DNA of 64,000 nt from Thermanaeromonas sp. C210 (GTDB lineage Bacteria; Bacillota; DSM-521; Neomoorellales; Neomoorellaceae): contig NZ_BLWF01000002.1 in assembly GCF_013167955.1 (NCBI RefSeq), forward strand, positions 475,185 to 539,184. Direction: 5' to 3'. Of the stretch, positions 578-36,545 are shown piece by piece (position 1 is the first letter of the stretch; the number at the start of each line of letters is the position of its first letter). The notes below the pieces were generated by a model. That model saw nothing but the letters and a program-made list of their open reading frames with translations. It was not told where the DNA came from and ran no database searches. The translations under genes and the position numbers were made by a program.

Positions 578-762
578 CTGTTCCGCGTGGTCCAAACCTT
601 TCTCCTTTCCGAGCAAGGGGAGGCATGCCCGTTTCCCGGCATACCCCGTGGGCTATATTTTAGCCCAGGCCGGCTGGCCATAGATCTGACCCTTGCTTAA
701 GGGCTCGTCCTTAGGCTCAACCGGCTCGGAGAAAGATATCAAATTTTGTCGGCTACTTCCAC
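578..762 (-). ncRNA. Structured 5' leader of modA-like gene, possible Moco/Tuco-type riboswitch
   Basis: About 245 nt separate the predicted transcription start (near 762) from the TTG start. The leader holds several GC-rich hairpins, among them one around 614-645 with a GGGAAACG loop flanked by GGGG/CCCC, and it ends in an intrinsic terminator. A molybdenum or tungsten cofactor riboswitch would fit the gene downstream. I could not match the published consensus base by base, so the class assignment is inference. Confidence 0.35.
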
Positions 763-768
763 GTTCTT

Positions 769-797
769 ATCATACCCTATCGTATCCAGCCCGTCAA
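769..797 (-). promoter_or_regulatory. Sigma-A type promoter for the modA-like gene
   Basis: On the minus strand TTGACG (792-797) and TATGAT (769-774) are separated by 17 bp, close to the vegetative consensus. Confidence 0.65.
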
Positions 798-889
798 GGA
801 TGCCCGGTGGTGCGCCCCTAAACTCGTATTTGCAGGTCGCATACCCGGGTACCCGCGTTTTTGCCGGCTCTTGACACGGGACACGGGCT

Positions 890-1174
890 TCATGTCCGGG
901 TGCCTATTTTCGAACCGAACATCTGTCGGCTTCCGGTGGCGGAAACGGCGACTAACAGGCCGTTTAACAAATATAGCGGGATATCTCTGAACGAGAAATT
1001 ACCTGTAGCCAGGTTCGTTATTATAATAAGTGTTAAGGCGACGGTTAGAATTAGGCCGCGCATCGACCATCCCTTTAACCTTCCAATATTCTTGAGAAAC
1101 TCCACCACCAATAAAGTAGCCATAGCGGCTCCGGATAAGGTAGCGAGATCGGCGTAGGTAAATAAGCCCTCCAT
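890..1174 (-). CDS. Small integral membrane protein, unknown function
   Basis: A 94-residue protein with about three hydrophobic segments: LSGAAMATLLVVEFL, then RGLILTVALTLIIITNLA, then the PLYLLNGLLVAVSA stretch. The size and pattern resemble small holin-like or phage-derived membrane proteins, but I recognise no family. I chose ATG 1174 because GGAAGGGGGG lies 6 nt upstream; an in-frame ATG at 1190-1192 has no SD. It stands alone, upstream of the modA-like gene on the same strand. The roughly 215 bp between it and the divergent sigma-factor promoter show nothing recognisable. Confidence 0.6.
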   Translation of the reverse strand: MEGLFTYADLATLSGAAMATLLVVEFLKNIGRLKGWSMRGLILTVALTLIIITNLATGNFSFRDIPLYLLNGLLVAVSATGSRQMFGSKIGTRT

Positions 1175-1389
1175 GGCTTTCCCCCCTTCCATGTAAACTG
1201 AGCCGGCCTCGGGCTCTCGAGTGAAATTCCTAAGGCTCGGTACCTTCTACTCCCTAAAGAGGGAAGAACTGCCCCTTTTAATAACCCAGTCGTCCGGAGG
1301 CCCTTCCTTCCAAACCCGAAACCGGGACGCCAGCCTGTCCCCAATTGATCGACGCACCAGTATGCTTATTATTCCAGATCAGTAACCAA

Positions 1390-33850: not shown

Positions 33851-34498
33851 TTATTTGTTTTTCAGTTTTTCCCAGTCCGCCAAAAACCGGGCCAACCCGG
33901 CGTCGGTGAGGGGATGCTTGATCATTTGGTTTAGCACCCCATAGGGTACCGTAGCGATGTCAGCCCCCAGCCGGGCTGCTTCAAGCACGTGCAGGGGATG
34001 GCGTATGCTGGCGGCAATGATTTCGGTGGAGAAACCGTACTGGGCAAAGATGGGAACGAGGTCGGATAGAATTTCCATGCCCCTGTGGCTTATGTCGTCC
34101 AGGCGGCCCACAAAAGGGCTGACGTACGTGGCGCCGGCCAGCGCGGCCAACAGGGCCTGGTTGGCGGAAAAAATCAGGGTGACGTTGGTTTTAATACCTT
34201 CGGCCGAAAGTTGTTTGACCGCCTTCAATCCCTCGGCGGTCATGGGTATTTTTACCACCACGTTAGGGTGGATGGAGGCCAGATCCCTTGCTTCCCGCAC
34301 CATGCCCGGGGCGTCCTGGCTGATAACTTCGGCACTTACCGGACCGTCCACAATGTGGCAGATCTCCTCCACTACCTGGCGCAGCGGCCGGCCCTCCCGG
34401 GCTACAAGGGAAGGATTGGTCGTTACACCAGAAATTATACCCAGATCGTTGGCGGCTTTAATCTCGTCAATGTTGGCTGTATCAAGAAATATGCGCAA
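33851..34498 (-). CDS. fsa: Transaldolase / fructose-6-phosphate aldolase
   Basis: Small TalC/FSA-type enzyme, 215 aa, class I aldolase. Schiff-base lysine in [14 protein letters not shown]; other motifs are [24 protein letters not shown] and [12 protein letters not shown]. Family members of this length are usually true transaldolases in Firmicutes (ywjH). TTG 34498 is preceded by GAGGAGGTG. Between fba and rho, as in Bacillus. Confidence 0.94.
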
Positions 34499-34564
34499 AA
34501 AACACACCTCCTCAGGAAGTTCAACTTTCAGGCGGGATCCACAAGGCCCCCTTTACCCCGGTTG

Positions 34565-35419
34565 CTACGCACGTCCGGTGGAACCGAAGACACGCATCTT
34601 GTGGCGGATGACTTCGCGGGCAGCTTCCCTGGCAGGACCCAGTACTTTGCGGGGATCTATTTCTTCTGGCCTGGTGGCCAGTACCTCCCGCATTTTTTTT
34701 ACAAAGGCCATGCGGATATCGGTATCGATATTGACCTTGCGAACTCCCAGGGCGACGGCCCGGCGGATGTCCTCGTCGGGTACCCCGGAAGAGCCATGGA
34801 GCACCAGGGGTATGCCGGTAAGCTCCCGAATGGTTTTAAGGCGTTCAAAGTCCAGGCGCGGCACTCCGCGGTAGGGTCCGTGGGCGGTCCCAATGGCTAC
34901 CGCTAAGGCATCCACCCCGGTTTCTGTCACAAAGCGCCGGGCCTCGCCCGGATCGGTCAGGGTTGCCTCCCACCCGGCCACCTGGACGTGATCCTCAGTA
35001 CCGCCGATGCGGCCCAGCTCTCCCTCCACCGATACCCCCATGGCCCGGGCTACTTCCACCACCTGCCGGGTCAGAGAAATGTTTTCCTCCAGGGGCAATC
35101 TGGAACCGTCCACCATTACCGAAGTAAAGCCGGCCCGCAGAGCCTGCCAGACCTGCTGCTGGTCGGTACCGTGGTCCAGGTGCAACACCACCGGTACCCG
35201 CGTGCTGCTTGCTGCCGCGCGGACCAGGGCGACTATGTAATCCAGACCCGCGTATTTCAGGGCCCCCTGGCTGGCCTGGATAACCACCGGGGAGGCTTCT
35301 GCTTCGGCCGCCTCCACAATGGCCTGGACAATTTCCATGTTATTGCAGTTAAAGGCTCCCACGGCAAAGGATTCGACCTCTGCCTTCTTTAGAACTTCTG
35401 CCAATGTTACCAACGGCAT
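34565..35419 (-). CDS. fba: Class II fructose-1,6-bisphosphate aldolase
   Basis: Zinc-dependent aldolase of glycolysis/gluconeogenesis, 284 aa. Motifs: FAVGAFNCNNMEIVQAI, VVLHLDHGTD with zinc ligand His, GFTSVMVDGSRLPLEENI, VEGELGRIGGTED, HGSSGVPDEDIRRAV, and VNIDTDIRMAF. Downstream of spo0F and the Cys-rich gene. Confidence 0.95.
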   Translation of the reverse strand: MPLVTLAEVLKKAEVESFAVGAFNCNNMEIVQAIVEAAEAEASPVVIQASQGALKYAGLDYIVALVRAAASSTRVPVVLHLDHGTDQQQVWQALRAGFTSVMVDGSRLPLEENISLTRQVVEVARAMGVSVEGELGRIGGTEDHVQVAGWEATLTDPGEARRFVTETGVDALAVAIGTAHGPYRGVPRLDFERLKTIRELTGIPLVLHGSSGVPDEDIRRAVALGVRKVNIDTDIRMAFVKKMREVLATRPEEIDPRKVLGPAREAAREVIRHKMRVFGSTGRA

Positions 35420-35458: not shown

Positions 35459-35887
35459 TCATGCTTCAGTATTATTATTACCCCCACATGCGTTGCCGAG
35501 CCATCCCTCCCCGACTAGGCCCAGATCCTGGGCCAATTCGGCCAGGGACCGCTCGTGGAGGGTTACTGCCCGGCGCACCAGGTGCCCGGGCCCCAGGAAA
35601 CCCACTTCCAGGCCCGTGTCCTCACAGATCAACGTACGGAGGCTTCCTCCCCAAAGGTCCCGGCGGGCGACCGGCCAGAAATGGGAATTACCGCACATGG
35701 TGCAGTTGAGCTGCAGCCAACAACAGTTTCCCTTCTGCCTTCCGATCCCCAGTAAAGGGGTACCGCAGGAACACTCCAGCCAGCAGGAGCGCCCCCCGCC
35801 CAGGGCGAAAAGGGAGAGGCTGTAAACTTCCAGGCAGCCGCATTCCGGGCAGCGTAAAGCACAGAATACGGTAGTGGGAATGAGCAT
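35459..35887 (-). CDS. Cys-rich zinc-ribbon-like protein, unknown function
   Basis: A 142-residue protein with three cysteine knuckles: RCPECGCLE (residues 12-20), LECSCG (37-42) and NCTMCGNSHF (61-70), plus other Cys at 9, 35, 55, 56 and 88. The C-terminal part (LHERSLAELAQDLGLVGEGW) is likely helical. It looks like a metal-binding protein of about three zinc sites; I do not recognise the family. It lies between spo0F and fba, where Bacillus has nothing, so a link to sporulation signalling is possible but unproven. Confidence 0.75.
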   Translation of the reverse strand: MLIPTTVFCALRCPECGCLEVYSLSLFALGGGRSCWLECSCGTPLLGIGRQKGNCCWLQLNCTMCGNSHFWPVARRDLWGGSLRTLICEDTGLEVGFLGPGHLVRRAVTLHERSLAELAQDLGLVGEGWLGNACGGNNNTEA

Positions 35888-36005: not shown

Positions 36006-36404
36006 TCAAATCAGTATGGCTTCCAGTTCCCAACAGTAATCGCAGGTTAGAGCAGAATTGACCATTGTGTACAGGGTTGAAAGATCGAAGGGTTTGTGAA
36101 GCAAATATCGAGCTCCTAACTTTTGGGCCTGCTCCGCTAGCTCTTTGTCCTCGTAGGCGGTGATGGCGATCACCGGCAGGTGGTAGGAGCGCTTATGTAG
36201 CTCCCGCAGAAAATCCACCCCGTTCATGCCCGGCATTTTCATATCCACGATGGCGAGGCTCGGCTTCTCGGTAAGTATTTTTCGCAGACCTTCCTCTCCG
36301 CTGGCGGCCATGCTCACCTTAAAGCCTGCCTGACGTAAAGCCTCTACCAAAAGACGGCGTACGCCCGGCTGGTCATCTACGATTAGAATTAACTCCTCCT
36401 TCAG
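36006..36404 (-). CDS. spo0F: Spo0F-type single-domain response regulator; CTG start
   Basis: Phosphorelay intermediate for sporulation entry: a stand-alone receiver domain, 132 aa. Starting at CTG 36404 (GGGGAGGTGA ends 6 nt upstream; in-frame TGA just before) gives MKEELILIVDDQPG. It places the functional residues at D10, D11, D54 (IVDMKMPG), T82 (AITAY) and K104 (HKPF), the same numbers as in Bacillus Spo0F. ATG, GTG and TTG are absent until TTG 36350, which would delete the acidic pocket. Neighbours fba-fsa-rho-rpmE confirm the identity. Confidence 0.88.
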   Translation of the reverse strand: MKEELILIVDDQPGVRRLLVEALRQAGFKVSMAASGEEGLRKILTEKPSLAIVDMKMPGMNGVDFLRELHKRSYHLPVIAITAYEDKELAEQAQKLGARYLLHKPFDLSTLYTMVNSALTCDYCWELEAILI

Positions 36405-36410
36405 ACCAGC

Positions 36411-36545
36411 TCACCTCCCCATCCCCTGAGGGAGACTCCTAGAGGCGTCGATCCGCTTGGCTAAAGGCTTCGCTTTCTTTTTTTCGCTTCCCTCCTTGAG
36501 AACTATATTCGCCACCAAGGCCAAAAGTCCTTTCCCGTTACCCAT
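36411..36545 (-). CDS. Candidate 44-residue basic protein upstream of spo0F
   Basis: Reads MGNGKGLLALVANIVLKEGS, then a Lys-rich EKKKAKPLAKRID segment, ending GMGR. Its stop codon (TGA 36411-36413) lies within the spo0F SD, GGGGAGGTGA, so translation could be coupled to the CTG start. There is no clear SD for its ATG at 36545, which follows the alr stop closely. A leader peptide for spo0F or a chance ORF; no family recognised. Confidence 0.35.
   Translation of the reverse strand: MGNGKGLLALVANIVLKEGSEKKKAKPLAKRIDASRSLPQGMGR

Follow-up and report, generated by a model that had tools for sequence, protein, structure and literature searches.

The gene described here lies on the minus strand of a 64,000-nucleotide stretch of Thermanaeromonas sp. 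C210 DNA (the window) and encodes a protein with a single receiver domain. Its stop-to-stop reading frame spans 134 codons (36006..36410), opens with TGA-GCT-GGT-CTG, and gives a coding sequence of 132 codons (36006..36404) when read from the CTG. A Pfam search matched PF00072 to residues 6-115 of the 132 (E 1.1e-31) and returned no other domain above the cut-off. In a sequence search of the PDB the best chains were those of Spo0F (E 1.6e-22), which accounts for the first seven matches and for eight of the first nine. When the CTG is counted as residue 1, as in the preliminary description of this DNA, the active residues are D10, D11, D54, T82 and K104. These fall in the same conserved columns of the alignment, are present in all 17 family members that carry the gene, and bear the residue numbers of Bacillus subtilis Spo0F (10, 11, 54, 82 and 104).

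The gene is located upstream of fba, which codes for a class II fructose-bisphosphate aldolase (34565..35419, minus strand; Pfam match), and beyond fba is a transaldolase-like ORF (33851..34507, minus strand) named by eye from its sequence. A neighborhood of fba, transaldolase and CTP synthase genes figures among the Spo0F criteria given in sections of Davidson et al. 2018 (PMC6136694). On sequence and neighborhood together, we assign the gene as spo0F. Judged against those sections, it shares with Spo0F from B. subtilis and from Clostridia that use a phosphorelay the single receiver domain, the active residues and their numbering, a gene position that precedes fba and is close to a transaldolase-like ORF, and the presence of Spo0A and a Spo0B candidate in one genome. 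It differs in its putative CTG start, in the conserved block of its leader, and in the one extra ORF that intervenes between spo0F and fba. This ORF (35459..35887, minus strand) is cysteine-rich and had no match in the Pfam search, and the same cysteine-rich ORF occurs in other family members (967..1356 of locus L009 and 683..1357 of locus L013, both on the minus strand).

The source genome encodes Spo0A (395 bits against a cut-off of 200). It also carries, beside ribosomal-protein-like ORFs, a 187-aa SPOB_a protein that is a candidate for Spo0B, a call based on PF14689, which matches kinases other than Spo0B as well. Because Spo0A and a SPOB_a protein are found together, a phosphorelay is likely to operate in this organism. 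A working phosphorelay was shown in Desulfotomaculum acetoxidans in the relevant sections of PMC6136694 (Davidson et al. 2018), which also correct a statement in part of PMC3533761 that spo0B is absent from clostridia.

Read directly from the window, the minus strand runs 5' to 3' through GGGGAGGTGA (36420-36411), GCTGGT (36410-36405) and CTG (36404-36402), and continues AAG GAG GAG TTA ATT CTA ATC GTA GAT GAC CAG. The Shine-Dalgarno sequence GGAGGTGA (36411..36418) is separated from the CTG by a spacer of 6 nt (36405..36410), and GGAGG lies 9 nt from it. Because the TGA within this Shine-Dalgarno sequence is an in-frame stop, a start farther upstream is excluded. No ATG, GTG or TTG (the canonical starts) appears in the frame from this stop through codon 9. 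The earliest is the TTG at 36350 (codon 19), and its use as a start would remove the first strand of the protein together with D10 and D11. The preliminary description had the frame opening at TGA GCT GGT CTG, the CTG at 36404 placed 6 nt behind the Shine-Dalgarno sequence, and no canonical start upstream of the IVDDQ motif; each of these statements agrees with the sequence.

Farther upstream, a putative promoter AAAGGACTT-N11-GGCGAATAT (36505..36533, minus strand) resembles the sigma-H consensus in a comparison made without a score. A similar block (GCAGGAATTT followed by CTAAATAT or CGAATA) aligns in most leaders of the family, likewise judged without a score. The spo0F gene of Bacillus has a sigma-H promoter, and the arrangement here agrees with it. 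The leaders 3' of the promoter-like block repeat words resembling AGCGAAG or AGCGGAG several times, both in the window (36410..36500, minus strand) and in the family. Reading frames through the block other than that of spo0F, including a leader peptide ending CTG GTC TGA and a frame beginning GTG AGC TGG, were rejected, as the stop codons that would end them vary among relatives.

Comparison of spo0F 5' ends in relatives had been suggested as a check on the CTG start. The family of the source genome (G000), a group of thermophilic spore formers that is probably the Moorellaceae, comprised 18 genomes, and all but G005 carry an orthologue. The CTG occupies the same position in 13 of these 17 orthologues (G000, G004, G006-G012 and G014-G017). 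In all 13 the TGA within the Shine-Dalgarno sequence closes the frame on the upstream side, and none has a canonical start between that stop and codon 6; G000, G004 and G007 lack ATG, GTG and TTG up to codon 9. Two of the exceptions carry an ATG adjoining the lost CTG: G002 reads CTT AAA ATG, and G013 has an insertion and reads GTC ATG. A different leader precedes the gene in G001, which offers a GTG upstream or an ATG at codon 7. The orthologue in the 1.4-Mb genome G003 (locus L021) has an altered leader and an internal TAG, and is probably broken.

Column counts were made on the 14 gap-free leaders, with G001, G003 and G013 omitted. At positions -14 to -7 all 14 carry GGAGGTGA, and each spacer base is shared by 13 or 14 of them; the spacer is GCTGGT in 13, and G004 has ATTGGC. 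The three bases of the CTG are conserved in 14, 14 and 13 leaders, respectively, and positions 4-9 in only 7 to 11. The sequence is thus almost unchanged across the CTG and the preceding 14 bases, and codons 2 and 3 vary freely. These counts are not independent, because several of the genomes on the Moorella side are closely related to one another.

Of 110 loci scanned, three were removed as duplicates. Two of the family loci agree, over the stretch compared, with records from Moorella thermoacetica DSM 21394 and a Thermanaeromonas MAG that were dropped in this step, and this agreement makes the Moorellaceae the probable family. Among the 107 distinct loci that were left, 14 lack a canonical start between the stop and codon 6; they are the 13 CTG orthologues and L112, a partial match that begins at residue 29. 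A search for the motif GGAGGTGANNTGGNCTG covered 21 genomes, 13 of the family's 18 and eight others. Nine genomes of the family (G000, G004 and G006-G012) contain it once each, at spo0F, and G024, outside the family, has one unrelated match; read backwards, it has none in any of the 21. In a tree built with FastTree from Spo0F, Alr and Fba, the CTG occurs on both sides of the deep split in the family, and the ATG-bearing G013 is nested beside the CTG-bearing G008. Support is low (0.233 to 0.62) at several nodes of this tree, and Alr or Fba is incomplete in several of the genomes. An ancestral CTG in the family is the simplest reading of this distribution.

Given these observations, we consider it highly likely that translation of spo0F begins at CUG, both in this organism and in most of its family. 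Initiation at the CTG, as first proposed, draws strong support from its retention in 13 of 17 orthologues and from the adjoining ATG in the two genomes that have lost it. Three other explanations of the same sequences deserve consideration.

The strongest of these, although still improbable, is a start inside the frame, at the ATT of codon 6 in the window or at codon 7 in genomes on the Moorella side. Codon 7 is ATG in nine and TTG in one of the 13 CTG genomes, so initiation there is possible in principle, and in the window the internal AAGGAGG forms a strong Shine-Dalgarno sequence 5 nt before the ATT. However, G004 and G007 have neither an internal Shine-Dalgarno sequence nor a canonical codon 7. 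A distance of 27 nt separates the GGAGG from codon 7, which in any case encodes a hydrophobic position. A start at either codon would also cut into the first strand, giving products that begin M-L-I-V-D-D or M-V-I-D-D, and would leave the invariant GGAGGTGAGCTGGTCTG unexplained.

Less probable again is the proposal that the block is an RNA or DNA element, either a hairpin or an operator of the form GCTGGTC-N29-GACCAGC, in which the CTG is kept only for its C and translation starts elsewhere. In its favor, the first arm is complete in G002, where the codon is CTT, and six of the seven arm bases survive in G013, where it is ATG. Yet G004 keeps the CTG even though its arm is broken, and the T and G of the CTG, which lie outside the arm, are conserved in 14 and 13 of the 14 leaders. 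Moreover, translation of this frame must begin somewhere, and the family shares no other start. A sequencing or assembly error that turned an A, G or T into the C of CTG, which is the usual suspicion for a CTG start in a single genome and was named in the preliminary description as a possible refutation if relatives had a canonical start here, has almost no chance of being correct, since 13 of 17 orthologues from three genera carry the identical CTG and G004 carries it behind a different spacer.

In the mechanism that we propose, the 8-nt Shine-Dalgarno sequence GGAGGUGA, 6 nt upstream, would place the 30S subunit on the CUG, which would be decoded by the initiator tRNA as fMet. Timing of the spo0F mRNA would be set by the sigma-H-like promoter, and the CUG, together with the hairpin considered below, would cap the output of Spo0F from each mRNA. 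The sequence, the degree to which it is conserved and the lack of an alternative start are observed directly, and initiation at the CUG itself, the use of fMet, the hairpin in the cell and the low output are inferences. Since CUG is generally a weak start codon, it may keep the level of Spo0F low, as the preliminary description proposed, although the very strong Shine-Dalgarno sequence could offset this weakness.

Published data on CUG starts provide a context for this proposal. Initiation complexes formed in E. coli are less stable on CUG than on AUG, GUG or UUG (PMC11497404, in part). Belinky et al. 2017 (PMC5622118), in the sections that treat start codon switches in 36 genome groups, report that CUG arose from 2 of 61,358 AUG, 1 of 5,080 GUG and 1 of 2,468 UUG ancestral starts, that is, four switches to CUG among about 69,000 ancestral starts. 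The spo0F gene resembles the cases in these sections in that a non-AUG start is accompanied by a strong, conserved Shine-Dalgarno sequence, a trend reported there for GUG and UUG. It differs from the rare switches to CUG in that the codon is held across a family. A search of the available literature on Spo0F in Moorella and on CUG or CTG starts found no report of a CUG start for spo0F, and the main text of PMC11445065 mentions neither CTG nor CUG.

An additional feature of the leader concerns its potential to fold. The spacer and the C of the CUG form the sequence GCUGGUC (36404..36410, minus strand), which is the exact complement of GACCAGC (36368..36374, minus strand) in codons 11-13 (D11-Q12-P13). 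These two segments are proposed as the 5' and 3' arms of a hairpin over the start on the basis of predicted folds, alignment of the leaders and, for the 3' arm, codon comparison. All seven Watson-Crick pairs can form in 13 of the 17 leaders, and six in G013; a random 7-mer of leader composition would pair fully at a frequency of 0.0004-0.0018, a figure obtained after the complementarity had been seen. This complementarity, the conserved spacer and the promoter go beyond what the preliminary description had observed.

The D and Q codons of the 3' arm are nearly constant in the family. D11 is GAC and Q12 is CAG in 16 of 17 orthologues (the exception is G003), compared with 12 for GAC at D10, 12 for GAT at D54 and at D107, and 13 for CAG at Q92. 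Outside the family, GACCAG occurs in 22 of 71 DDQ loci, a set that was obtained from 91 by removing misses, duplicates, partial matches and non-DDQ sequences and that includes proteins other than Spo0F. Codons 14, 15 and 17 are also rather uniform, so frozen synonymous sites are not confined to the arm.

For the 13 seven-pair leaders, the predicted energy of the 51-nt start region is -10.1 to -15.2 kcal/mol at 37 C and weakens to -4.0 to -6.1 kcal/mol at 65 C. The RNAalifold consensus draws the stem at the start region, although when the 125-nt leaders were folded singly the minimum-energy structure contained it in seven of 15 sequences and showed other pairings in eight. Compensatory base changes are absent from the family leaders, in which both arms are nearly invariant. 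G004, the sole spacer variant among the CTG genomes, breaks pairs while keeping the CTG. Since the arm is retained in G002 and mostly in G013 without a CTG start, and the CTG is retained in G004 with a broken arm, the two features are separable. A hairpin between the Shine-Dalgarno sequence and a later start was also considered and rejected, as initiation beyond the 3' arm would leave the protein without D10 and D11.

A hairpin over the start is therefore plausible, and we rate the chance that it forms in the cell as somewhat below even. If it does form, the invariant spacer and first base of the CUG would pair with codons 11-13, and the ribosome would have to open the structure. More doubtful is a broader proposal, in which an obligatory CUG within a hairpin that uses the D-Q-P codons as its 3' arm served as an ancestral translational brake. 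If this were true, protein sequence and translational control would be locked together. Hairpins in mRNA that sequester the start are a known class of translational control. The predicted stem likewise lies beside a Shine-Dalgarno sequence and extends one base into the start codon, but its 3' arm resides in the codons of a catalytic motif.

CUG starts are a great rarity in bacteria, and most have the appearance of errors in annotation. The family-conserved CUG start of spo0F is very probably real, and a hairpin at this start is possible. Retention of a CUG across a family, in the gene for a sporulation relay protein, suggests that a weak or tunable start has been selected. There is also a practical consequence, in that gene finders limited to ATG, GTG and TTG will truncate or miss Spo0F in this family, a matter of relevance to the question of which organisms have a phosphorelay. 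In addition, the complementarity to codons 11-13 offers a direct test of joint selection on coding sequence and initiation.

The tolerance of this organism for CTG starts was examined in 464 kb of its genome (the window together with 400 kb from contig 1, or roughly 17% of the total). Behind GGAGG in newly opened frames of this sample, CTG is not enriched (four cases, compared with 14 for ATG, eight for GTG, five for TTG and up to eight for other codons), and spo0F is the only case of GGAGGTGA with CTG. Genome-wide, GGAGGTGA-N5..7-CTG occurs at 10 places in G000, all of which were examined for open frames, and none besides spo0F is a convincing CTG gene. The other nine are short, lie inside longer frames, have a canonical in-frame start, or open weak frames such as one of 108 codons in L190, adjoining a hypE-like gene (named by eye). 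Matches to the same pattern across the family were examined at a subset of loci. The recurring GGAGGTGATCTTCCTG was rejected, its frame having a GTG three codons before the CTG. Another possible CTG start is that of a Rieske-like protein (named by eye) in G007 (L172, 1515..1925), which follows GGAGGTGATAAGCT and could begin at CTG or at an ATG ten codons later.

An altered initiator tRNA was likewise considered as the cause of CUG use. The initiator tRNA of G000 has the usual GGGCTCATAACCC anticodon arm, so this explanation was rejected, and no change of the M1 type, discussed in relation to CUG in part of PMC11497404, explains the use of this codon. The same tRNA (L158, 1473..1548) begins with T opposite A72, which gives a U1-A72 pair. 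The initiator tRNAs of E. coli and B. subtilis have a C1-A72 mismatch at this position.
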